From positions 1-64,000 of the forward strand of contig RAYO01000025.1 of the NCBI GenBank assembly GCA_003612335.1: a stretch of DNA of 64,000 nucleotides. The letters run 5' to 3'. This DNA comes from a bacterium 1xD42-67 (lineage in GTDB: Bacteria; Bacillota; Clostridia; Oscillospirales; Oscillospiraceae). Positions 43,109 through 54,919 of this stretch are shown in pieces. The notes beneath the pieces were generated by a model that saw only the letters and a list, made by a program, of their open reading frames with translations, was not told where the DNA came from and did not search any database. The translations under genes and the position numbers were made by a program. Numbering within the stretch: position 1 is the stretch's first letter; every line of letters starts with the position of its first letter.

Positions 43109-43241
43109 TTGACAAAGGAATAATTTTATTTATAATGATAATAGAAGGTCGCATGGTAGTGGGGTGCCCCACTACCGTCATTTGTTAACAAATGACAACG
43201 GCCCTACTCCAGCGGCAGACCTGCCGCTGAAGATCATGCAG
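43109..43241 (+). promoter_or_regulatory. Promoter and triple-hairpin leader of the S-layer-anchored peptidase gene
   Basis: -35 TTGACA (43109-43114), 16-bp AT-only-type spacer and -10 TATAAT (43131-43136). The leader then has three perfect inverted repeats in a row: GGTAGTGGGG/CCCCACTACC (43155-43176), GTCATTTG-TTAA-CAAATGAC (43177-43196) and AGCGGCAG/CTGCCGCT (43211-43228). None is followed by a T run, so they may stabilise the very long mRNA or gate translation. The ribosome site GGGAGG follows. Confidence 0.6.
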
Positions 43242-43259
43242 AAAAAGGGAGGACATTCA

Positions 43260-46200
43260 ATGAAGGCATCCATCAGACCGGCGTCACGTGTGCTCAGCCT
43301 GATCCTGGCAGCTTCTATGCTGTTCGGGATGATGGTCACAGGCGCCGCTGCGGTCGAGGCGGGCGGAGAGACCGTTTCGGACGCGATCTTGTACACCATC
43401 AACGACAGCCAAGAGCTGGAGTTCGATGTCGTGTACAAGGGAGCGGTCACAGAACAGACGACAGTGACCGACACCACCGGCAATGGGATCGACTCGCTGG
43501 ACAAGCTGTCCAAGGTCCTGGGGACCGCGGACAAGACTCCAGTCGAACTGACCGACACGCCCTCTGACCGTACCCTGGGGAAGGCGGTCACCGCCGACCT
43601 GATCCTGGACGAGAGCGACCCTGCGACAGCTATCACAGCTATCAAGATCACCGATGTGCGCCGCCGCCCCGTGGTGGGCATCTCCTGGAAGAAAGACACC
43701 ATCGGGAACGACTACCAGGGCTTCGCCGAGGCCTTTGAGCGCAACGGCGCTCTCGCCGTGTTCCTGCCCAAGGTGACCACCGCCCAGGAGGCGAGAGATA
43801 TCCTTGGCAAGGTCAACGGCATCTTCATGACCGGCGGCGAGGACTGGAACGCCTATCTTTATGGGCAGGATCAGACCCCCCACGGCTCTTCTGGGATCAA
43901 TGATGTCCGGGACACCTCTGACATCCATCTGATGCAGCAGGCGATCGAGCTGGACGTCCCCATGCTGGCGGTATGCCGGGGCGAGCAGGGCTTCAACATC
44001 GCCATGGGCGGCGGTCTGATCCAGGATGTGCCATACTACCTGGGCCAGCAGGTCATCGCTGGCAAGATCTCCCCCGACCGTGTGACCGGCGTGCTGTCTG
44101 GGCCCTCTGACGCCGATCGGCAGGCCATCGCCGCCGCCAATAACATCGCTGTCGAGAATCTGCCCGACATCCTGAAGACTCCTGTGAAGGACACTGGATA
44201 CACCCAGTGGACCTTTGGCGAGGGCCCCACCAGCACCAAAGGCGATCCTACTTACAACAAAAACGATCAAACATATGTGGCCGGCAGCGGCTGTGAGGAA
44301 GGCCATCTGCGCGTCCAGATCGACGGTCTGATCCACAGCGGCGACAAGGGCTACCATATCCTGGACGCAGGCGAAGGCAACGATAACGTGGCCATCGACC
44401 CTGACTCCAAGTGGCTCTCCGATATTTTCGATGGTGCAGATTCCATCGATCTGATCGCCACTGCTCACCATCAGTCCGCTGACCCGGAGGATCTGGGTGA
44501 CGGCCTGACCGTGGTGGCCCGCTCCTCCGACGGGATCATCGAGGCCATCGAGCATCAGGACAGCCTGTTCGCTCTGGGCCTCCAGTGGCACCCTGAGCGG
44601 GACGCCCTGGCAGATACCAGAAAATATCCTGATGGTCACGAACTTGCGGGCCAGCCTGTAGACGTGGATCAGGAGCTGTGCAACGCGCCTCTTCGCGCCT
44701 TGGTGGAATATGCCGGCAAACAGCAGGACCGGGACCACCCTGAGGACGAGGAAGAGGAGCCGGTGGATCCCCCCATCGAAGACAGCGGCTTCCAGCCCGG
44801 CGTCACCTACGAGAGCGCGGTGACCGACGCGGAGCGCGCCAAGATCCATGCGGCAGTGGACCGGCTGAGCGGCTACGTGGGCAACATGGAGGTGGGCGAC
44901 GGCAGCTATGACCCCTACACCCTGATCGGCGGTCTGGCCACCGGCTCCAGCTACAATTCCATCTCCTATGGTAAGGCAAATGCGGGCTCTGTCCCCACAG
45001 AATACCCCTTCGCCGTGCCCAACACGGAAAACAACAAGAATGAGGGCCAGCGCAAGACCGACAAATTCACCTGGGTCAAGGAGCTGGCAGAGGAGCTGGG
45101 CTTCGAGGTGGTCCAGCGCCAGGACGACAAATACGTCTACGTGGAGATCGGCGATCCCGACGCCCCGGAGATGGTGATGGCCCTCAGCCATCTGGATTCC
45201 CCCACGGCCTCGAACAAGCCCGGCGGAAATCTGGACCGCTGGGTGAACAAAGACGGCGAGCTGGATCCCACCGCCTATTATCACCCCTATGTGAAGGACG
45301 GCTGGCTGTATGGCGCAGGCGTGCAGGACGACAGCGGTCCCACCCTGGCCACCCTCTTCGCCGCCAAGGCCCTGATGGATTCCGGCGTGAAGTTCGACCG
45401 GCGGATCCGTATCGTCATGGGCGCCTACGAGGACAGCAACCCCGGCGTCCCCACCATCGACGATACCCTGAAGTACATGGACATCCCCTATTACACCGCT
45501 AACCCCAGCTTCTACGACAACTGGTCCTATAAGTCCCTGAACCGGGAGGAGACCCCCATCGCGGCCTACACCTCCGACTCCCGCTTCCCCGTTGTGGTGG
45601 GCAACTCCAAGGCTTGGACCCCCTATGTCACCATGGATCTGTCCGCCGACAACGGCAAGCCCTTCCGCCTGATCTCCGCCTCCGCCAACGTCACCGAGCG
45701 GGCAGGGGATAACACCCTGAAGGACATCGTCCACGGCAGTACCTCTCAGGTGGCCTCCAAGGCCGTCTTCGTCCTGGACACCACCGGAGCCGATTCGGTC
45801 GCTGTGGCTCAGTTCAAGAAGGACATCGAAGACGCCGCCACCGCCCGGGGCTGGCTCCCCGCCGCCTCCGGCACCACCCCCAAGGTGGTCGTGGAAGTGG
45901 ACACGAATCAGGTCACTCTGACGGTCAACACCGACGTGGCCATGGAGATGCCCACCCCCCAGTACGGCAAGAACGCCGTGGTCTGGGGCATGTACCTCCT
46001 GTCTGAGTCCCTGCCCAACGGCCTTGAGCTGAAGACCGCCGCCCAGGGGATCGCCGATCTGTTCTTCCGCAACTGCGTGGAGGGTGAGGCCTATATCGGC
46101 AAGTACATGGGCATCCCCGCCACCCTGCTGCGCAACCCCGACGACGGCGTGGCCAACCTGACCTTCGCCCTCATGGGCGGCATCCAGGGGACCTACGACC

Positions 46201-48653
46201 TGGTGAGCTTCTACAAGGACAGCTCCCTCAGCATCCCCCTGTACGTGCGGAGCATGCACGAGAACAAGGACAATTACAACGAGGCTATGGACGCTGTGGT
46301 CCAGGCGTTCACAAATAAGGGCTTCCAGCTCCTTACCAGTAAGGGCGAAGTATCCCCTCCCGCCGCCTTCACCGATCCCACCCTCTATCTGTCCCACGAC
46401 AACCTGCTGACCGCCCTCCAGATGGCCAGCTACAAGGCGACCATCGAGTACGATCCCTCTGAGTTCGGCGGCCCCTACGATCTGCTGGACATCACCTATC
46501 CCGTGGGCACCACCGGCGGAACTCTGGCCTCCAACTACTTCAACAAGATGACCGCTTTCGGCGCTGTCATCCCCGGCAACGAGCGCTGGTGGCACTCCGC
46601 CAACGAGCGCATCAGTGTGGAATCCATCATCCAGATGACCAAGATGATGGCCGACGGGATGCTGGAGATGGCCCGCTACTCCGGCGACGCGGGCGCACAG
46701 CTGATGTGGGCCGACATCGAGGGCTACAACGCCGACCGGGCCGACCTGGACCTGCTGGACGTGACCGTGGGCACCTATCAGGACGCCTCCTCCAAGATCA
46801 CCAGATCCATCCTGGGCGGCGACACCCTCATCGGCGCCACCGAGTTCGAGATCCACATGTGGGCCCAGCGGGGCAATGCCTCTAAGACCGCAGACCAGTA
46901 CAACAAGGGCCACGAGGCCGGCGGCGTGTACCTCCCCCTGGACGATGCGGACTTCCTGGCCAACACCTTCGTGCTGCCCATGCGGCTGGAGTTCAAGTAT
47001 GAACGTCCTCAGGGCATGTCCAACGCCAACTGGAACAAGATCTCCTCCGGCAATGTGAGCGATCTCGCCTTCCATCTGCTGAAGGATGGGGAGAGCATCT
47101 CCCTCACCGTCCCCAGGGGACAGGACGCGAACAAGTTCTTCTCCGTCCGTATGGAGGAGGGCAACGCCAACACCGTTTACGTCGCTGTCAATCTGGCTCT
47201 GACCGACAGCGCCTATGACGGCGTGAGCACCGTCCTGGCCGACTCCCGGACCGACCTGTTCAAGCTCAACGAGGAGTGGCTGGAGAACAACGAGAACCCC
47301 TTCCCCGAGCGCGGCAAGGTGGAGGAGCGGGGCTTCTTCCTCTTTGGCGACGGCGAGAAGAACGCCTGCTTCGAGTCCCCTGACGCGATCTATGTCACCA
47401 CCAGCGCCGTTTCGGACGGCGGATCCTCCTCCAGCGGCGGGGACGACGGCGGTTCCTCCTCTTCCTCCGTCACCGTCCCGGTCAGCGGCGATAAGAACAG
47501 CGTCAACGTCAGTGCCAACGTGTCCGGCAGCACCGCGACCGTGGACAAGATCGACCTGAGCAAGCTGGACAACGTGACCGGCAGCGACGTGGCTACCGGG
47601 ATGGTAGAGATCGACTTCACGGGCCTGGGCCGGAACATCAGCACCGTGGACCTGCCCGCCAATGCCGTGAAGAAGATCGCCAGCGCGGTGAACGACAGCG
47701 GGAACGACGCCGAGGGCCTGCTCATCAAGCTGTCCACCGGCGAGGTAGCCTTCGACCCGGCGGCCCTGGACGCGGTCCAGAAGCAGGCGGGCGACCGGAT
47801 CGTCCTCTCTGTGGCCCCCGCCAAGAGCTCCGCGCTCAATGCCCGGCAAAAGGAGGTCGTGGGCGACGCCCCTGTGTTCGACCTCACCTTGAAGAGCGGC
47901 AGCAAGGCCATCACCGACTTCGGCAGCGGCTTGGTCACCGTGTCCCTGCCATATACCTTGAAAGCGGGCCAGGATCCCTCTGGCGTGGTGGTCTACTACC
48001 TGGACGGCGACGGGAACATCCATCGCTGTGAGACCATGTATGACGTGCGCACCAAGTCGGTGATCTTCACCACGAATCACTTCTCGCTGTATATGGTCGG
48101 CTATGATCCGGCGGCCGCCTGGAAGGATCCATACTCCGATGTGGCCCAGGGCGCATGGTATCATGACGCAGTCCGGTTCGTCACTGAGAACGGCCTGATG
48201 AGCGGATTCGGGAACGGGCTCTTCGGCCCGGACGAGGCGCTCTCCCGGGCCCAGCTGGCTCAGATCCTCTACAGTAAAGAGGGCAGGCCCGCCGCCACAG
48301 GAACTCTCTTCACCGATGTGGCCGCAGGCATGTGGTACGCCAACGCCATCGCCTGGGCGGCGGAAAAGGGCATCGTGAGCGGCTACGGCGACGGCCGGTT
48401 CGGCCCCGATGACAACATCACCCGAGAACAGCTGGCGGTCATGCTCTGGCGCTACGCCGGGAGCCCCGCCCCGTCCGCAAAGGAGCTGGACCTGGTGGAT
48501 TCCAGCGGTGCCAGCCCCTTCGCCCTGGACGCTCTGCGCTGGGCTGTGGAGAACAAGATCCTCAGCGGCTACGGCGACGGACAGCTGGCCCCTCAGGGCC
48601 CGGCGACTCGGGCGCAGGCCGCACAGATGCTGAAGAATTTTATGGGAAAGTGA
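43260..48653 (+). CDS. S-layer-anchored bifunctional peptidase: C26 gamma-glutamyl hydrolase + M20/PepV-like dipeptidase + 3 SLH
   Basis: The product is 1797 residues. A signal peptide (about 1-32) and a propeptide-like part lead to a class-I-amidotransferase-fold C26 domain (about 135-495) with nucleophile Cys239 (LAVCRGEQGFN), and His444 and Glu446 (LQWHPERD). An M20 peptidase of the PepV/Sapep type follows (about 535-1135), with metal ligands His644 (SHLDSP), Asp690 (GVQDDSGP), Glu724/Asp725 (AYEDSN) and His1112 (WHSANE). Next are a beta-rich region, a Ser/Gly linker (about 1384-1400), another beta domain and three SLH domains (about 1619-1797) that bind cell-wall polymer. It probably hydrolyses gamma-glutamyl amides and dipeptides at the cell surface. 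Both active sites look complete. Start set by GGGAGG before ATG 43260. Confidence 0.85.
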   Translation: MKASIRPASRVLSLILAASMLFGMMVTGAAAVEAGGETVSDAILYTINDSQELEFDVVYKGAVTEQTTVTDTTGNGIDSLDKLSKVLGTADKTPVELTDTPSDRTLGKAVTADLILDESDPATAITAIKITDVRRRPVVGISWKKDTIGNDYQGFAEAFERNGALAVFLPKVTTAQEARDILGKVNGIFMTGGEDWNAYLYGQDQTPHGSSGINDVRDTSDIHLMQQAIELDVPMLAVCRGEQGFNIAMGGGLIQDVPYYLGQQVIAGKISPDRVTGVLSGPSDADRQAIAAANNIAVENLPDILKTPVKDTGYTQWTFGEGPTSTKGDPTYNKNDQTYVAGSGCEEGHLRVQIDGLIHSGDKGYHILDAGEGNDNVAIDPDSKWLSDIFDGADSIDLIATAHHQSADPEDLGDGLTVVARSSDGIIEAIEHQDSLFALGLQWHPERDALADTRKYPDGHELAGQPVDVDQELCNAPLRALVEYAGKQQDRDHPEDEEEEPVDPPIEDSGFQPGVTYESAVTDAERAKIHAAVDRLSGYVGNMEVGDGSYDPYTLIGGLATGSSYNSISYGKANAGSVPTEYPFAVPNTENNKNEGQRKTDKFTWVKELAEELGFEVVQRQDDKYVYVEIGDPDAPEMVMALSHLDSPTASNKPGGNLDRWVNKDGELDPTAYYHPYVKDGWLYGAGVQDDSGPTLATLFAAKALMDSGVKFDRRIRIVMGAYEDSNPGVPTIDDTLKYMDIPYYTANPSFYDNWSYKSLNREETPIAAYTSDSRFPVVVGNSKAWTPYVTMDLSADNGKPFRLISASANVTERAGDNTLKDIVHGSTSQVASKAVFVLDTTGADSVAVAQFKKDIEDAATARGWLPAASGTTPKVVVEVDTNQVTLTVNTDVAMEMPTPQYGKNAVVWGMYLLSESLPNGLELKTAAQGIADLFFRNCVEGEAYIGKYMGIPATLLRNPDDGVANLTFALMGGIQGTYDLVSFYKDSSLSIPLYVRSMHENKDNYNEAMDAVVQAFTNKGFQLLTSKGEVSPPAAFTDPTLYLSHDNLLTALQMASYKATIEYDPSEFGGPYDLLDITYPVGTTGGTLASNYFNKMTAFGAVIPGNERWWHSANERISVESIIQMTKMMADGMLEMARYSGDAGAQLMWADIEGYNADRADLDLLDVTVGTYQDASSKITRSILGGDTLIGATEFEIHMWAQRGNASKTADQYNKGHEAGGVYLPLDDADFLANTFVLPMRLEFKYERPQGMSNANWNKISSGNVSDLAFHLLKDGESISLTVPRGQDANKFFSVRMEEGNANTVYVAVNLALTDSAYDGVSTVLADSRTDLFKLNEEWLENNENPFPERGKVEERGFFLFGDGEKNACFESPDAIYVTTSAVSDGGSSSSGGDDGGSSSSSVTVPVSGDKNSVNVSANVSGSTATVDKIDLSKLDNVTGSDVATGMVEIDFTGLGRNISTVDLPANAVKKIASAVNDSGNDAEGLLIKLSTGEVAFDPAALDAVQKQAGDRIVLSVAPAKSSALNARQKEVVGDAPVFDLTLKSGSKAITDFGSGLVTVSLPYTLKAGQDPSGVVVYYLDGDGNIHRCETMYDVRTKSVIFTTNHFSLYMVGYDPAAAWKDPYSDVAQGAWYHDAVRFVTENGLMSGFGNGLFGPDEALSRAQLAQILYSKEGRPAATGTLFTDVAAGMWYANAIAWAAEKGIVSGYGDGRFGPDDNITREQLAVMLWRYAGSPAPSAKELDLVDSSGASPFALDALRWAVENKILSGYGDGQLAPQGPATRAQAAQMLKNFMGK

Positions 48654-48684
48654 CCCTTTGCGACCGATCTGACAGACCTTGAAA

Positions 48685-48724
48685 GCATGACGGCTGCCCG
48701 CAGTGCGGGCAGCCGTCATGCTTT
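48685..48724. terminator. Bidirectional terminator
   Basis: GCATGACGGCTGCCCGC (48685-48701) and GCGGGCAGCCGTCATGC (48705-48721) form a 17-bp perfect stem with a three-base loop, followed by TTTCTCC on the plus strand and TTTC on the minus strand. It separates the SLH protein gene from the convergent sugar operon. Confidence 0.8.
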
Positions 48725-48730
48725 CTCCTA

Positions 48731-49399
48731 TCATGTGCGGGGCTCGGACAGGATGCCGCCGCTGTCGTTCCAGCCGGGCATGGCCCGTCGGATGGCCCTG
48801 GCCTGGGCCACCGGGTCGGGGGCAGAGAGGATCCCGCCGCCGATGACGATCACATCGGGGCACAGGGCACAGCAGTCGGGAAGGCTCGCCAGGGAGATCC
48901 CTCCCGCCGCCGACAGCTCCGCCCGCCGGACCGCCCGGCGCAGCACCGCCAGGTCCTGCAGCGGGGTGCGGCCCTGGGCCTGCTGGTCCACCCCGGTGTG
49001 GACGGCGATCCCATGGATCCCCGCCTCCTCCAGCTCCCGAGCCCGGCCGGACAGGTCGGACACACAGATCATGTCCGCCACCACCCGGCGTCCCGCCCGG
49101 TCCGCCGCCTCGACACAGGCCCGGACGGTGGCCAGATCCGTCACCGCCAGCACGGTGACCAGGTCCGCCCCCGCCCGGAAGGCGCTCTCCGCCTCCAGGC
49201 GTCCGGCGTCCATGATCTTGGTGTCGGCCAGCAGCTCTTTGCCGGGGAACTGGGCCCGGAAGCAGCGCACCGCCTCCATGCCGTGCTCCAGCAGGAAGGG
49301 GGTGCCCAGCTCGAAGCGGTCCACATCCGCCTCCATCCCTCGGGCCAGGTCCAGCGCCTCCTCCAACGGCAGCACATCGAAGGCCACTTGCAGCTTCAT
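48731..49399 (-). CDS. hxlA: 3-hexulose-6-phosphate synthase-like (OMPDC superfamily)
   Basis: The product is 222 residues, a one-domain barrel. It shows VAFDVLPLEEALDLA, FELGTPFLLEHGMEAV and the metal/catalytic element LADTKIMDAG. DxKxMDAG is the form found in hexulose-phosphate synthases; KGPDC relatives usually have DxKxADAG. VHTGVDQQAQG follows. It condenses formaldehyde with ribulose 5-phosphate or runs in reverse to release ribulose 5-phosphate. It is the last gene of the sugar locus, next to a canonical hxlB. The start at MKLQVAFD has GAGGAGAG upstream. Confidence 0.82.
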   Translation of the reverse strand: MKLQVAFDVLPLEEALDLARGMEADVDRFELGTPFLLEHGMEAVRCFRAQFPGKELLADTKIMDAGRLEAESAFRAGADLVTVLAVTDLATVRACVEAADRAGRRVVADMICVSDLSGRARELEEAGIHGIAVHTGVDQQAQGRTPLQDLAVLRRAVRRAELSAAGGISLASLPDCCALCPDVIVIGGGILSAPDPVAQARAIRRAMPGWNDSGGILSEPRT

Positions 49400-49412
49400 G
49401 CCTCTCTCCTCC

Positions 49413-49967
49413 TCATTCCAGGTTCGCATGGCGGGCGAACATGGTGTCTCCCGTCTCTCCCAGCCGGTCCATCAGCTCCAGCACCAGGGCGTCCAGGATC
49501 AGGAAGCTGGCCTGCTCGAAGAGGGAGCCCATGGGCTGGACCGACCGGAATCTGCTGTCCGCCTTAGGGGTGGGGGCGGGCACCCGCAGCACTGCAGAGG
49601 CCAGCGCCCCCACAGTGCTCTCCGGGCGGACGGTGACCAGGGCCACCTGCGCCCCCTGGGCCCTGGCCTTTTTCGCCATAGCGGCCAGGCTGGCCGTCTC
49701 TCCGGAGCCGGACACCACCACCAGCAGGTCCTTCGGACCGATCCCTGGCGCGGTGGTCTCACCGCAGACGAAGGCGGTCAGTCCCAGGTGCATCAGCCGC
49801 ATGGCGAAGGCCTTCGCCGCCATGCCGGACCGCCCCGCCCCCGCCAAAAAGATCCGCTCCGCGCCCAGGATGGCCTCCGCTAGGAGCTTCCCCGCGGCGG
49901 GATCCGTCTGTTCCAGCACGGTCTCCAGCTCCTGGAGGATGGTCAGTCCATATCTTCTCATATCCAT
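49413..49967 (-). CDS. hxlB: 6-phospho-3-hexuloisomerase (SIS domain), canonical copy
   Basis: The product is 184 residues, a single SIS domain. It has IFLAGAGRSGMAAKAFAMRL, VVSGSGETASLAAMAKKA and the C-terminal RHANLE signature of phosphohexuloisomerases. It interconverts D-arabino-3-hexulose 6-phosphate and fructose 6-phosphate and pairs with the adjacent hxlA. The start at MDMRRYG was chosen for AAGGAAGAG upstream; an alternative ATG at 49988 overlaps the MFS stop but lacks a spaced ribosome site. Confidence 0.85.
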   Translation of the reverse strand: MDMRRYGLTILQELETVLEQTDPAAGKLLAEAILGAERIFLAGAGRSGMAAKAFAMRLMHLGLTAFVCGETTAPGIGPKDLLVVVSGSGETASLAAMAKKARAQGAQVALVTVRPESTVGALASAVLRVPAPTPKADSRFRSVQPMGSLFEQASFLILDALVLELMDRLGETGDTMFARHANLE

Positions 49968-49984
49968 CAAAGCTCTTCCTTTCG

Positions 49985-51199
49985 TCATCTCCGGTCTGGC
50001 CGGGGGCTCTGGGCCCCGGCGATGGTCACCGCCGTCCCCAGGGCGGACACGGCAGAGATGCAGGGCAGGAGCACATCCGCCCCCACCAGATCCAGCATCC
50101 GTCCCCCGGCCAGGGCCCCCAGGACGCTGCCCAGGGTGAAGGTCATCGTGAGGTATGCCTGGCCCTTGATGGCGTCTCCCCGGTCCAGGACCGTATCGAT
50201 ATAGTAGACCGAGGCCACCGAGATCAGCGCCCAGCCCAGCATCTGAAGGGACTGGACCGCATAGAACAGGGGGATGCTGGGGACCAGCCAGGACAGCGCC
50301 GCCTTTGCCGTGAAGAAGACGGCGGACAGCCGCAGCCAGATGTGGCACCGGACCCGTTCTACCATGGCGCCAAAGAGGAACATGGTGGGCAGCTCCCAGA
50401 AGGCGGCCAGCGCCGTGGCGATCCCCATCTCTCCACTGCCGCCCCCCTTGCTCACCACGATCTGAAAGGTGAAGTTGTTCAGGATCATGTGGCCGCTGTA
50501 CAGCAGGGTGGTCCCAATCAGCAGGACCCCGAACCGGGGGTACTTTTGGAAGAACACCAGGGGGGAGGCCGTCCCTCCCGCACCCCTCTCCGCCGCCTTC
50601 TGCCTGGCCTCCAAGGGGAAGGAGGGGACCGAGACGGCAGTGAGGGAAAAGCTGACCAGGATCAGCAGAGGGACCGCCACCGCCCCCAGGGACTTGGTCA
50701 AAAAGCCCAAGGCCCCGGCCGCTGCGGCATAGGCCACAGAGCCCATCCCCCGGGCGGCGCCCCAGTCCAGCCGGCGCCCCTGGTCCACCGCCTCCGTCCC
50801 CAGGGCGTTGATCAGGGGGAAGTCCAGCTGGAGCAGGAGGAGGCAGGCCCCATAGAGCAGTCCGACGGCAGCGGCGGGGCCCTCCAGCAGATAGAGGGCG
50901 GTGAGGCCCAGCCCCGCCAGCACCACCGCCCCGCTGAAGACAGCGATCATCGCCTTCAGCCCGAACCGCCCTCCCCCCTCCGCCGCTGCCGCGGCCATGG
51001 GCTGGAGCAGGGCGGAGGCCCCTCCGGACAGGGCGATCACCAGCCCGATCTGGGTATTGGTGAAGCCCACATCCAGCAGGAACACACTGGCAAAGCCCAT
51101 GACCGTGGCGAAACCCATCCAGAAAAAGCACTGGATGCAGGCGTACCGGCCCGTCAGGCATCTCTCCTTTTGGTCAGACACACGACCTCTTTCCGGCAT
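49985..51199 (-). CDS. MFS transporter (LacY/NupG-like)
   Basis: The product is 404 residues with twelve predicted membrane segments: ACIQCFFWMGFATVMGFASV at the N-terminus and GFTNTQIGLVIALSGGASAL matching the MFS_1-like sugar/nucleoside symporter branch. In a sugar locus that also has an ABC importer, it may take up a second sugar form or export an intermediate. The start at MPERGRV has GGAGG eight bases upstream. A GC-rich hairpin lies upstream of it, after the binding-protein gene. Confidence 0.8.
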   Translation of the reverse strand: MPERGRVSDQKERCLTGRYACIQCFFWMGFATVMGFASVFLLDVGFTNTQIGLVIALSGGASALLQPMAAAAAEGGGRFGLKAMIAVFSGAVVLAGLGLTALYLLEGPAAAVGLLYGACLLLLQLDFPLINALGTEAVDQGRRLDWGAARGMGSVAYAAAAGALGFLTKSLGAVAVPLLILVSFSLTAVSVPSFPLEARQKAAERGAGGTASPLVFFQKYPRFGVLLIGTTLLYSGHMILNNFTFQIVVSKGGGSGEMGIATALAAFWELPTMFLFGAMVERVRCHIWLRLSAVFFTAKAALSWLVPSIPLFYAVQSLQMLGWALISVASVYYIDTVLDRGDAIKGQAYLTMTFTLGSVLGALAGGRMLDLVGADVLLPCISAVSALGTAVTIAGAQSPRPDRR

Positions 51200-51224
51200 C
51201 TCATTCCCCTCCACAGAAGGAGGC

Positions 51225-51246
51225 GGCCCGCCGGTCTCGGCGGGCC
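51225..51246 (-). other. Intercistronic hairpin between binding-protein and MFS genes
   Basis: GGCCCGCC and GGCGGGCC arms form an eight-base-pair stem with no T run. It could protect the 3' end of the upstream binding-protein message. Confidence 0.45.
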
Positions 51247-51283
51247 GTCTCTCAAGATACGGCTGCTATTTTTATAGCTCTGC

Positions 51284-52297
51284 TCAGTCCTCGAACTGGT
51301 CCACGTTGTCCTTGGTGACCACAGAGACGCCGGTGTCCACCTGGGTCTCGGCCAGAGCCTTGCCCTGCATCAGGTCCACAGCGGCCTGGATGGACTTCTC
51401 GCCCATGACGTTGGGGTTCTGAGCCATGAAGGCCAGCATCTCGCCGTCACGGACATGAGCGCGGTTGGAGGAGGAGTTGTCGAAGCCCACGCACAGGATG
51501 TTCTTGCCGCCGGCATTGGCCTCCTTGACCGCGTTGGCGGCGCCGTTGGTCGCGCCGTCATTGGCGCCGTAGACAGCGATGACGCCGTCCTGGATCAGCG
51601 CGTTGGTCAGCTCCTGGGCCTTGACGGCGTCGCCGTCGGAATACTGGACCTCGCCCATGGTGAAGCCGGTGCCCTCGAAGGCGGACTTGAAGCCGTCCAC
51701 ACGGTCGATGCAGGACTGCACGCCGGCCTGGGCGGAGACGATACCGATCTCGCCCTCGGTCAGGTTGGCGTCGGCCAGGTACTGCTTCATCGCCTCACCG
51801 GCCTGAGCGCCGGCGGCGAAGTTATCGGTGGCGAAGGTGGCGGAGGCGTCCAGAGAAGCGGTGGCATCCACATAGATCAGCTTGATGCCCTTGTCCAGAG
51901 CGGCCTGGAGGGCGTCGTTGCAGGCGGTGGAGTCGTTGACGGAGATGATGATGACGTCAGAGCCGTCGTTGGTAGCGGTCTCGATCATCTGGATCTGCTG
52001 GGCGTTGTCCTTCTTCTCAGGGGCCAGCCAGTTGTACTCGATATTTACGCCGGAGGACTTCAGCTCCTCCACCTTGGCCTTGGCGGCCTTCTCCAGCTTC
52101 ACCCAGTGCACGTCCATCTGGTCCATGGTGATCAGGGTGATCTTGATGGGCTCGCCGCCGCCGGCATTGCTGCCGCCGCCGTTGTTGGAGCCGCCGCCGG
52201 CATTGCTGCCGCCATTGCCGCCCTTATCACCGCCGCCGCAGGCGACGAGGGACAGCGACATAGCCAGAGCCAGGGTCATCGCAAGTAATTTCTTCAT
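51284..52297 (-). CDS. Sugar ABC transporter substrate-binding lipoprotein (RbsB-like)
   Basis: The product is 337 residues: a lipoprotein signal ending SLSLVAC (Cys20), a Gly/Asn/Ser tether (about 24-48), then a Peripla_BP_4-type domain with TLITMDQMDVHWVKLEKAA, VIIISVNDSTACNDALQAA and AVYGANDGATNGAANAV. The family binds monosaccharides such as ribose, allose, xylose or galactose; the specificity cannot be read. It lies downstream of permease and ATPase genes, an unusual A-C-B order in transcription. Confidence 0.9.
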   Translation of the reverse strand: MKKLLAMTLALAMSLSLVACGGGDKGGNGGSNAGGGSNNGGGSNAGGGEPIKITLITMDQMDVHWVKLEKAAKAKVEELKSSGVNIEYNWLAPEKKDNAQQIQMIETATNDGSDVIIISVNDSTACNDALQAALDKGIKLIYVDATASLDASATFATDNFAAGAQAGEAMKQYLADANLTEGEIGIVSAQAGVQSCIDRVDGFKSAFEGTGFTMGEVQYSDGDAVKAQELTNALIQDGVIAVYGANDGATNGAANAVKEANAGGKNILCVGFDNSSSNRAHVRDGEMLAFMAQNPNVMGEKSIQAAVDLMQGKALAETQVDTGVSVVTKDNVDQFED

Positions 52298-52361
52298 GTT
52301 GTGATCCTCCGTTTATTGTTTTTTATTGTAAGGGCACAGGCCCGTACAATCCTTTTTCGGG

Positions 52362-52377
52362 CGGGAGCGCTCTCCCG
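52362..52377 (-). other. Intercistronic hairpin before the binding-protein gene
   Basis: CGGGAG-CGCT-CTCCCG forms a compact six-base-pair stem, extended by flanking G/C bases, in the 85-bp gap between the permease stop and the binding-protein start. It has no T run, so it probably marks an RNA processing or stabilisation point that lets the binding protein be made in excess. Confidence 0.45.
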
Positions 52378-52382
52378 GGGCT

Positions 52383-53375
52383 TCAGGACTTGCTCTTGGG
52401 ACGGCGGGAGCCGTTGCGGCGGATGACGTCGAAGAGGACGCAGGCCACCACCAGGATGCCGATGACGATGTTCCGGTAGGCCACAGGCACCTTGGCGAAG
52501 GTCAGGCCGGACTGGAGGATGGCCCACACCGCCGCGCCGGCGATGACGCCCACCAGCAGACCGCTGCCGCCCAGGGTGGACACGCCGCCGATGACGGCCG
52601 CGGCCACAGCATACATCTCATAGCTCATGCCGGCGCTCATGTCGCCCATGCCCGACTGGGCCAGGGTCACCAGGCCGGTGAGGAACGCGCAGAAGGAAGA
52701 GACCATATAAGCCTTGGTGGTGGCGGTGAAGACGTTCACGCCGGACAGCCGGGCGGCGTCCACATTGGAGCCGATGGCGTAGATGTGCCGGCCGGAGCGG
52801 GTGAAGGACAGGATGTAGAAGAAGATGGCCCACACGATCAGGGCGATCCACACGCCGTTGAACACCCCGGCGGTCTTACCGTAGTACAGCAGGTCCTTGA
52901 ACGCCTTGGCAGCGCCCTCGGTGCCGATGTTGTCGGTGTTATAGTTGTTGTTGGCCAGCTGGGCGATGCCTCGGGCGATGGTCATAGTGCCCAAAGTAGC
53001 AATGAAGGGTGGGAGCTTGAACTTGCCCACCAGTACGCCGTTGATGAAGCCCACCAGCATACAGCAGACGAAGGCGACCAGGATCGCTACCACAGGGGCA
53101 AAGCCGTTGCACATCATGGTGGCAGAGATCATGGCGCTCATGCCCAGCACCGAGCCGATCGACAGGTCGATGTTGCCGGTGATACACACATAGGCCTGGC
53201 CGATGCCCACCAGCAGGTAGGGGACGATGGAGCGCAGCAGGGTCATGATGCTGTCCGGCTTGATGAAGTTGGGGTTCATGCAGGAGAAGACGATCATCAG
53301 GATGATCACGCCTGCGAAGGCGGTGATGACAGAGGCGGCGCTCTGGCTTATGGTGATCTTTTTCTTGTTTTCCAT
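52383..53375 (-). CDS. Sugar ABC transporter permease (RbsC-like)
   Basis: The product is 330 residues with eight to ten membrane segments. Typical RbsC patterns are present: CMNPNFIKPDSIMTLLRS, CITGNIDLSIGSVLGMSAM, KLPPFIATLGTMTIARGIA, and GRHIYAIGSNVDAARLSGVN (the cytoplasmic EAA-like coupling region). The start at MENKKKITI has GGAG ten bases upstream. It lies 36 bases after the ATPase gene. Confidence 0.92.
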   Translation of the reverse strand: MENKKKITISQSAASVITAFAGVIILMIVFSCMNPNFIKPDSIMTLLRSIVPYLLVGIGQAYVCITGNIDLSIGSVLGMSAMISATMMCNGFAPVVAILVAFVCCMLVGFINGVLVGKFKLPPFIATLGTMTIARGIAQLANNNYNTDNIGTEGAAKAFKDLLYYGKTAGVFNGVWIALIVWAIFFYILSFTRSGRHIYAIGSNVDAARLSGVNVFTATTKAYMVSSFCAFLTGLVTLAQSGMGDMSAGMSYEMYAVAAAVIGGVSTLGGSGLLVGVIAGAAVWAILQSGLTFAKVPVAYRNIVIGILVVACVLFDVIRRNGSRRPKSKS

Positions 53376-53410
53376 TGCTCTGACACTCCTTCTATTTTCG
53401 ATCCGCCCGC

Positions 53411-54919
53411 TCAGCTCTCGTTGGAGCCGAACCGGGTGGCATAGGTCATGATCTCCTGTTCGCTGGTGCTCCGGGGGTCCACCTCGCCGGTGATGCGCCC
53501 GTTGCACATGACCAGGATGCGGTCAGAGATGCCCATGACCTCGGGCAGCTCGCTGGATACGATGATGACCACCACGCCGTCCTTCTTCAGCTGGTTGATG
53601 ATCTGATAGATCTCCACCTTAGCGGCCACGTCGATGCCCCGGGTGGGCTCATCGAAGATGACCACGCGGGAGTTCCGCGCCAGCCACTTGGCCACGACGA
53701 TCTTCTGCTGGTTGCCGCCGGACAGACTGCCTGCCGCCACCTCGGCGCTGGCCATCTTGATGGTCAGGGAGGACTTGCCTTTCTCGATCATCTCGTTCTC
53801 CCGGCTGCGGATCACGTTGCCGATGGGGCCGCAGATCAGATCCAGGTTGGGCAGGGCGATATTGTCCCGGATGGTCAGCTTGGTACACAGGCCATCCTTT
53901 TTCCGGTCCTCAGGGGCCAGCACGATGCCCTGGCGGATGGCGTCGGCGGGGGAGTGGATGCGGAGCTCCTTGCCGTCCAGGATCACCTGGCCGCTCTCCT
54001 TGGGGTCGGCGCCGAAGATGGCCCGCATGGCCTCGGTGCGGCCCGCGCCCACCAGCCCGGAGAAGCCCAGGACCTCGCCCTCATAAGCCTCAAAGCTGAT
54101 GCCCTTCACTGCCCGGCCTGCTCGAAGGCCCTTCACCTCCAGCACCTTCTTCCCTCTGGGCACCGTGTCCCTGGGGAACTGCTCGGTGATCTCCCGGCCC
54201 ACCATGTTGGCGATGATCTCCTCCATGGTGAAGTCGGCGAACCTGCCCTCGGTGATATAGTGGCCGTCCCGCATGATGGTCACGCTGTCCACGATGTGGT
54301 GCAGCTCCTGGAGGCGGTGGCTGATGTACACGATGGCACAGCCCTGGCTGCGCAGCTCCTTGACGATGCGGAACATCTCCTCGATCTCCGCGTTGGACAG
54401 GGCGGAGGAGGGCTCATCCATCACCAGCACCTTGGCGTTGATCAGCAGGGCCTTGGCGATCTCCACCATCTGCTGCCGGCCCACAGGCAGGTCGCCCACG
54501 ATGGTGTTGGGGTCCAGGTCGTGGATGCCCAGCTTTTTCAGCTGCTCCACCGCCTGGCGGTTCATCTCGGCGGTGTCCAGCCGGCCGCCCTTCACGATCT
54601 CCCGGCCGAGGAACATGTTGTTGGCCACCGTCAGGTGCTGGCACATGTTCAGCTCCTGGTGGATGATGGCCACGCCCAGCTCCTGGGCCTGCTTGGTGTT
54701 CAGGTCCCCCTCCACCTTGTGGCCGAAGATGGTGATGTCCCCGGAATCCCGGGTGTATACACCGGAGAGGATCTTCATCAGGGTGGACTTGCCGGCGCCG
54801 TTCTCTCCCAACAGCGCCATGACTTCACCTGTCCGCAGGTGGAGCTGGACGTCGTCCAGGGCCTTGACGCCGGGGAAGGTCTTGGTGACGTGCTCCATGG
54901 AAACAGCGTACTCGCTCAT
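53411..54919 (-). CDS. Sugar ABC transporter ATPase, two-domain (RbsA-like)
   Basis: The product is 502 residues with two ABC domains. The N-terminal one has Walker A GENGAGKST, signature LPVGRQQMVEIAKAL and Walker B VLVMDEPSSAL. The C-terminal one has a degenerate Walker A (GLVGAGRTEAM), signature SLSGGNQQKIVVAKWL and Walker B VVIFDEPTRGID. This is the standard layout of RbsA/MglA/AlsA proteins. AGGAGC lies upstream of the start. Confidence 0.93.
   Translation of the reverse strand: MSEYAVSMEHVTKTFPGVKALDDVQLHLRTGEVMALLGENGAGKSTLMKILSGVYTRDSGDITIFGHKVEGDLNTKQAQELGVAIIHQELNMCQHLTVANNMFLGREIVKGGRLDTAEMNRQAVEQLKKLGIHDLDPNTIVGDLPVGRQQMVEIAKALLINAKVLVMDEPSSALSNAEIEEMFRIVKELRSQGCAIVYISHRLQELHHIVDSVTIMRDGHYITEGRFADFTMEEIIANMVGREITEQFPRDTVPRGKKVLEVKGLRAGRAVKGISFEAYEGEVLGFSGLVGAGRTEAMRAIFGADPKESGQVILDGKELRIHSPADAIRQGIVLAPEDRKKDGLCTKLTIRDNIALPNLDLICGPIGNVIRSRENEMIEKGKSSLTIKMASAEVAAGSLSGGNQQKIVVAKWLARNSRVVIFDEPTRGIDVAAKVEIYQIINQLKKDGVVVIIVSSELPEVMGISDRILVMCNGRITGEVDPRSTSEQEIMTYATRFGSNES

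Follow-up and report, generated by a model that had tools for sequence, protein, structure and literature searches.

A single-gene chain of C26 and M20 peptidase folds with SLH domains, and its modular relatives

Gene layout, setting and C-terminal cassette

Within the window (the whole 64,000-nucleotide stretch of DNA analysed), a forward-strand gene at 43260–48653 encodes a stop-free chain of 1797 residues, ordered as putative signal peptide, N-terminal domain, C26, M20, extension, linker and three SLH domains. The frame stays open upstream to a GTG at 43164. The ATG at 43260 fits both a ribosome-binding site, GGGAGG (43247–43252, +), and the signal peptide, each recognized by eye; the GTG, which precedes the signal peptide, is an unlikely start. 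The Sec-type signal peptide, also read by eye, covers about residues 1–31 (43260–43352, +). It is followed by an N-terminal domain without Pfam match (residues 36–132; 43365–43655, +), which stands before C26 in the aligned units and is duplicated together with C26 in one relative (L042). Pfam and alignments then place a C26 (class-I glutamine amidotransferase-like) domain at 43656–44747 (+), with a variable loop at about residues 260–350, and an M20 domain at residues 520–1145 (44817–46694, +). An extension of about 245 residues without Pfam match (46695–47429, +) leads to a Ser/Gly-rich linker and following region (47430–48125, +), which lie within a C-terminal cassette (about residues 1389–1795), and to the three SLH domains (residues 1623–1795; 48126–48644, +). 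The first-pass annotation had described C26, M20 and three SLH domains in one 1797-residue chain, and all are over their Pfam cut-offs (C26, PF07722, 125.1 bits against 20.5; M20, PF01546, 35.8 against 24.6; SLH, PF00395, three stretches, 137.4 against 20.8).

A joint of this kind could be a chimera of assembly or a frame artefact: the window's assembly comprises 120 contigs, and an antisense frame of 1859 codons spans the gene (43284–48863, −). However, the same order, C26-M20-SLH, is found in 1605 residues of CCNA10 (locus L040), a genome of the window's genus that consists of a single contig of 3,558,314 bases, and this refutes the chimera. CCNA10 is named by several papers on gut samples, so the window too is likely to come from the gut. 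The gene has no internal stop, GC climbs only gradually along it, the antisense frame has no Pfam match, and long antisense frames oppose the relatives too. The single-chain claim thus withstands the chimera test that the first-pass annotation had set itself.

A sigma-70-type promoter, TTGACA-16-TATAAT, matches the consensus at 12 of 12 positions (43109–43136, +), a match that is not proof of use; it is the sole exact one in the 64-kb window, with none in 100 shuffles. The region upstream of the CCNA10 gene carries TTGACA-17-TATAAT (spacer counted by eye). The 5' leader (43143–43259, +) forms a run of hairpins in the predicted fold (z −4.66, equalled by 0 of 200 shuffles), and one of them, at 43153–43178 between promoter and start, scores terminator-like, which makes attenuation possible. 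Palindromes also occur in the CCNA10 leader (z −2.30). No shared leader motif was found: a hairpin pattern taken from the CCNA10 leader matched only its own locus and L051, from the same genome, among 87 loci, and only the CCNA10 genome among 20 genomes, the window's own being included and negative. An Rfam search of 36000–58000 gave no match, and no terminator-like site was found in 48600–48800.

Both flanking genes sit on the opposite strand, so the gene is probably its own transcription unit. Upstream lies a class II tRNA synthetase, which we take to be of the glycyl type, and downstream a HUMPS/OMP-decarboxylase-like gene. These two, RNase Y, SIS, MFS, sugar-type ABC and other proteins make up the ten neighbouring frames scanned, among which there was no gamma-glutamyl pathway gene, the MFS and sugar-type ABC genes lying downstream on the other strand. 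The neighbourhood was dropped as an explanation, as these ten frames do not account for the gene. HUMPS/OMP-decarboxylase-like, SIS, MFS, sugar-binding and permease genes follow one another at 48734–53507 (−), possibly as a sugar or ribulose-monophosphate-type locus. A search of a plasmid collection returned no place covering 80% of the query.

Pfam bears out the first annotation of two peptidase folds joined to SLH domains for anchoring, and a gene for CsaB, the pyruvyl transferase that serves SLH anchoring, is present in the window's genome (TIGR03609, 281 bits; equivalog cut-off 213.1). CsaB was found through PF04230, which alone is unspecific and matches 8 of 14 control genomes too. The CsaB frame (L083:1288–3495, −; G000:C74) is a single one of 735 aa with an N-terminal glycosyltransferase-like part.

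The C-terminal cassette is common to other SLH proteins of the family, with 65% and 60% identity in L011 and L012. A whole-protein search at 1e-60 matched 37 of 300 family genomes, own included, and the listed matches other than the gene itself start at residue 1347 or later; with two candidates scored per genome, this search is silent on the catalytic parts. Linker and SLH domains in CCNA10 are 33–35% identical to those of the window chain, and an InlB-type repeat precedes the SLH domains there. Own-genome matches to the protein number 32 (24 to linker/SLH, 7 to C26 and the gene itself). The same genome encodes a second SLH protein of 702 aa (L008:1177–3285, −; G000:C86), in which SLH domains are followed by two tandem C26 units. 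A search at 1e-60 through 200 family genomes, the window's own among them, gave 4 that match it, of which two match over a single C26 domain only; similar chains are present in L053 and, by match pattern, in G751 and G753, and G128 has one at 67% identity.

C26 triad and altered M20 site

Residues Cys239, His444 and Glu446 (codons at 43974, 44589 and 44595, +) line up with CRG and QWHPE motifs in C26 proteins of solved structure. Neither the triad nor an HHQ motif varies among the related C26 units (11 of 11), in line with the complete triad first annotated. The solved matches aligned residue by residue were Lin1909 (3fij) and two records of one probable glutamine amidotransferase, and PuuD matched too. 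We take 7d4r, a 'probable glutamine amidotransferase' by its record, to be SpuA. Against the PuuD equivalog (NF008471) the scores were 57.1 and 63 bits, under the cut-off of 266. Folate polyglutamate, one of the substrates first proposed, finds no support: at its limits, the search of solved structures brought up no gamma-glutamyl (folate) hydrolase of the human type, and the C26 relatives that did match, solved or curated, belong to the PuuD/SpuA type, with the chain below the PuuD cut-off as well. We expect the C26 unit to be active with good confidence, and its family membership predicts gamma-glutamyl hydrolase activity.

The M20 unit was compared with 14 Sapep-type relatives (L067–L080, all rows at 1e-10 except the window; L069 is partial). 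With these it shares H644 (45189, +), D646, D690 (45327), D691, the base E724 (45429), D773 (45576), H1112 (46593) and the lid residue R997 (46248). At the metal-ligand position Glu154 it has D725 (45432), at the lid positions His269 and Asn217 it has E896 (45945) and Q830 (45747), and each of the three replaced residues is invariant in the references (14/14). All three changes are present in the three known M20-clade members (the window chain, L040 and L099), which are 54–68% identical, and in none of the references. Only the clade members, again three of three, carry the post-M20 extension, which is missing from the 14 reference rows. HMMER leaves the lid stretch unaligned; the correspondence of E896 and Q830 comes from a MAFFT alignment, in which E896 is anchored by P..G.NAV. 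A lid histidine, His1000, was considered as a stand-in for His269 and dropped, as it is Tyr in L099.

Over the five metal-ligand positions and the base Glu, five of six residues are as in the references and the second Glu is Asp in all three members. Of the 'complete M20/PepV-like metal site' first annotated, what stands is that all ligand positions are filled and that the base E724 and four ligands are kept; what does not is PepV likeness at D725, a shorter acid, and at the lid His and Asn, replaced in 3/3 members. The label 'dipeptidase' fares worse. The chain departs from PepV at three active-site or lid positions and scores far under the curated cut-offs for Sapep (TIGR01887, 93.1 bits against 207.95, about 208) and PepV (TIGR01886, 49.7 against 632). 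With Q830, E896 and R997 at the lid positions Asn217, His269 and Arg350, one of three is kept, in a stretch where the alignment is weak. No other Sapep match was found in the window's genome at E 0.001, in a genome search that was also below the cut-off.

In PepV, according to the review PMC6271292, the lid residues Asn217, His269 and Arg350 contact the substrate C-terminus or the transition state, and Glu154 is a metal ligand. The review also links Asp at the position of D773 to aminopeptidases or dipeptidases and not to aminoacylases or carboxypeptidases. In a staphylococcal PepV, activity was lost when the metal ligand Asp173 was mutated (PMC11742315).

The altered M20 unit might be a pseudo-enzyme, a metal- or ligand-binding module that holds the substrate for the C26 site. 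The replacements of Glu154, His269 and Asn217 in every member and the scores far below the Sapep and PepV cut-offs are what such a module could leave, and an alanine mutant of aminoacylase-1 His206, the equivalent lid His, was nearly inactive in the account given in a section of PMC4012986; by analogy, the M20 unit could be weak or dead. However, the ligand positions and base Glu are all acidic or His, and in PepD the equivalent second Glu faces away from the metal and has an ambiguous role (passage in PMC6271292), so the position may tolerate change. Moreover, the core around the metal site (residues 636–740; 84.8% identity, dN 0.10 and dS 0.90 between the window chain and L040) is the most conserved of nine partly overlapping regions, with SLH at 35% identity, which speaks for function. 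We judge a pseudo-enzyme to be unlikely, though well short of negligible.

Because the same ligands and the same three substitutions recur in 3/3 members at 54–68% identity, the pattern argues for changed function rather than decay. We lean towards a catalytic M20 unit, with somewhat less confidence than for C26. It is probably a metal hydrolase of altered specificity, and since the lid pocket is changed (E896 for His, Q830 for Asn), its substrate would differ from a plain dipeptide whose carboxylate is free. AlphaFold models built on alignments of 7 rows for C26 and 2 rows for M20 had pLDDT of 37.8 and 38.9, and were unusable for the metal site.

A separate observation concerns codons 1060–1179 (46437–46796), in which third positions at four-fold sites are 89–93% identical between the window gene and L040; in other M20 blocks they are 39–74% identical, and against L099 the contrast is less marked. 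Recombination seems a likelier source of this tract than RNA constraint.

A modular family of C26, M20 and M14 units

Profile A1, built from 7 rows that span the N-terminal domain and C26, matched 7 of 64 genomes of the genus at E 1e-40, the window's own included. With at most four candidates scored per genome, it matched only the window's own among 400 family genomes (1e-40) and among 394 order genomes (1e-45). One more C26 chain is carried by the genome of L041, outside the seven matched genomes. The first scan for relatives, by exact 8-residue patterns from 10 stretches, led to five loci and will have missed further ones. For the M20 clade, a profile matched only the own genome among 300 family genomes (1e-20), and 14 of 245 class genomes, own included, at 1e-10.

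Nine chains from eight genomes join C26 with M20, with M14, with both or with neither, and in six of the nine, in several orders, M20 or M14 units share the chain with C26. The window gene and L040 read C26-M20-SLH. L099 (566–12133; G1034:C61) reads M20-M14-M14-M14-C26-SLH, with three SLH domains, in a TTG-opened frame of 3855 aa whose true start is probably an ATG further in. L098 reads C26-M14-C26 up to the contig end, L042 C26-C26-M14-SLH before being cut by a contig end, and L043, from Pseudoflavonifractor sp. An184, C26-M14-SLH; L044 and L100 are C26-SLH, and L041 is C26 without SLH. The An184 gene adjoins two large SLH-like frames (L043:2554–5175, −, and 3–2399), one seen by tblastn and the other by eye. 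All six M14 units have the HxxE, His and Glu motifs, L098 showing variants. For the L043 unit there was a single weak solved match, named carboxypeptidase A, and no NCBIfam match.

In a tree of C26 units rooted on one paralogue, the units of the three M20 chains do not form one group, and the well-supported branches require at least two changes of partner; good support is limited to one of nine branches, the outgroup sits on a very long branch, and L099, although it has both M20 and M14, was labelled M20.

The large size of the protein, its consensus promoter and a C-terminal cassette common to other surface proteins would also suit a mainly structural or adhesive surface component in which the enzymatic folds are relics. 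The triad kept in all 11 C26 units and the M14 motifs kept in six of six (with the L098 variants) speak against relics, as does the divergence of linker and SLH while catalytic motifs are retained, and we hold this reading to be very improbable.

A more serious rival is action on the cell wall, in which C26, M20 and M14 units would trim gamma-D-glutamyl stem peptides of the cell's own or its neighbours' peptidoglycan. SLH domains place the chain at the wall; a part of the review PMC6403190 lists SLH among the extra binding domains of M14 cell-wall peptidases and reports that MpaA, an M14 enzyme, cuts the gamma-D-glutamyl-diaminopimelate bond. However, the solved C26 relatives that matched are PuuD/SpuA-type, the one weak solved match of the L043 M14 unit is a protein named carboxypeptidase A, and the window chain has no M14. 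Among the chains scanned by Pfam there was no wall-binding domain beyond SLH and no autolysin domain beyond M14. Wall action therefore seems to us fairly improbable, though it deserves to be taken seriously.

Proposed surface peptidase and comparison with known systems

Architecture, conservation, modularity, a consensus promoter and CsaB in the genome were all observed by computation. On this basis we favour, by a slender balance, a surface-anchored, single-gene modular peptidase in which a gamma-glutamyl-cutting C26 unit is combined with an M20 unit that would cleave that peptide, or a related one, at another bond. Secretion, wall anchoring, the two activities, the order in which these act and the substrate itself are predictions of the proposal. 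The chain would leave the cell by the Sec route, and its SLH domains would attach it to the wall through a pyruvylated secondary wall polymer. Its first unit, made up of the N-terminal domain and C26, would hydrolyse a gamma-glutamyl bond by its Cys-His-Glu triad; in the M20 unit, a predicted two-metal hydrolase, E724 would serve as base and H644, D690, D725, D773 and H1112 would bind the metals. What one site releases might then be shortened by the other while still at the cell surface, ahead of uptake, and the relatives would swap or supplement M20 with M14 carboxypeptidase units for the same purpose. That both sites act in sequence on one substrate is plausible from the sequences, and we hold it only tentatively. 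The modular family is stronger indirect evidence for coupling than a single chain; the rarity of the C26 unit even in the genus (7/64), the terminator-like hairpin ahead of the start and a neighbourhood of ten scanned frames that yielded no gamma-glutamyl pathway gene count against this best explanation.

C26 and M20 peptidases are mostly known as separate intracellular enzymes. In the literature searched we found no described enzyme with this domain order, in agreement with the first-pass annotation, although the family-name query for Peptidase_C26 was weak; neither the C26-M20 combination nor the shuffled relatives were found there in print. The terms C26 and M20 are absent from the searched passages of the reviews PMC6403190 and PMC5817068. 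The parts are already known, M14 with SLH having been listed before in one such passage (PMC6403190), and it is the joining of C26 with M20, and the shuffled relatives, that are new to the searched literature.

A bolder reading, which as a whole we think rather doubtful, is that these chains make up a family, so far undescribed and close to genus-level in extent, of covalent 'multi-peptidases' on the cell surface. In it C26, M20 and M14 would be shuffled and multiplied, up to five catalytic units in 3855 residues, so as to break down extracellularly a single class of peptides with gamma-glutamyl or isopeptide links; the M20 clade would have a new specificity, with the lid Glu in place of His favouring a positively charged substrate (an amine or lysine side chain) where PepV binds a carboxylate. 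If true, the display of C26, M20 and M14 on one anchored chain would do for peptides what multi-domain surface glycanases do for glycans, and would hint at a nutrient or wall substrate so far unrecognized. With the same three residues changed in every member, the M20 site would allow one to test directly how the lid determines specificity in the M20 family.

Among known systems, the C26 unit resembles the PuuD/SpuA-type gamma-glutamyl-GABA hydrolases and Lin1909 (3fij) in its Cys-His-Glu triad and its CRG, QWHPE and HHQ motifs; unlike them, the window chain has a putative signal peptide, SLH domains and an extra N-terminal domain, and its C26 unit has a long variable loop before the HHQ motif. 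The M20 unit is like the Sapep/PepV dipeptidases (3khx, 1lfw; TIGR01887) in its HxD and DD motifs, base Glu, Asp and His ligands and lid Arg. It differs from them by metal Glu to Asp, lid His to Glu and lid Asn to Gln in all three clade members, by an insert of about 15 residues after HxD and by the long extension that follows the domain. The M14 units, found only in the sister chains, share the HxxE, His and Glu motifs of M14 zinc carboxypeptidases (PF00246) in six of six units but, unlike known M14 enzymes, are joined to C26 in one chain, with up to three in a row. Like the surface proteins that Bacillota anchor by SLH domains, such as Sap (SLH domain, 3pyw), the window chain has three C-terminal SLH domains, a putative signal peptide, the C-terminal cassette and a CsaB in the genome; what sets it apart is its cargo, peptidases of two clans in one chain.
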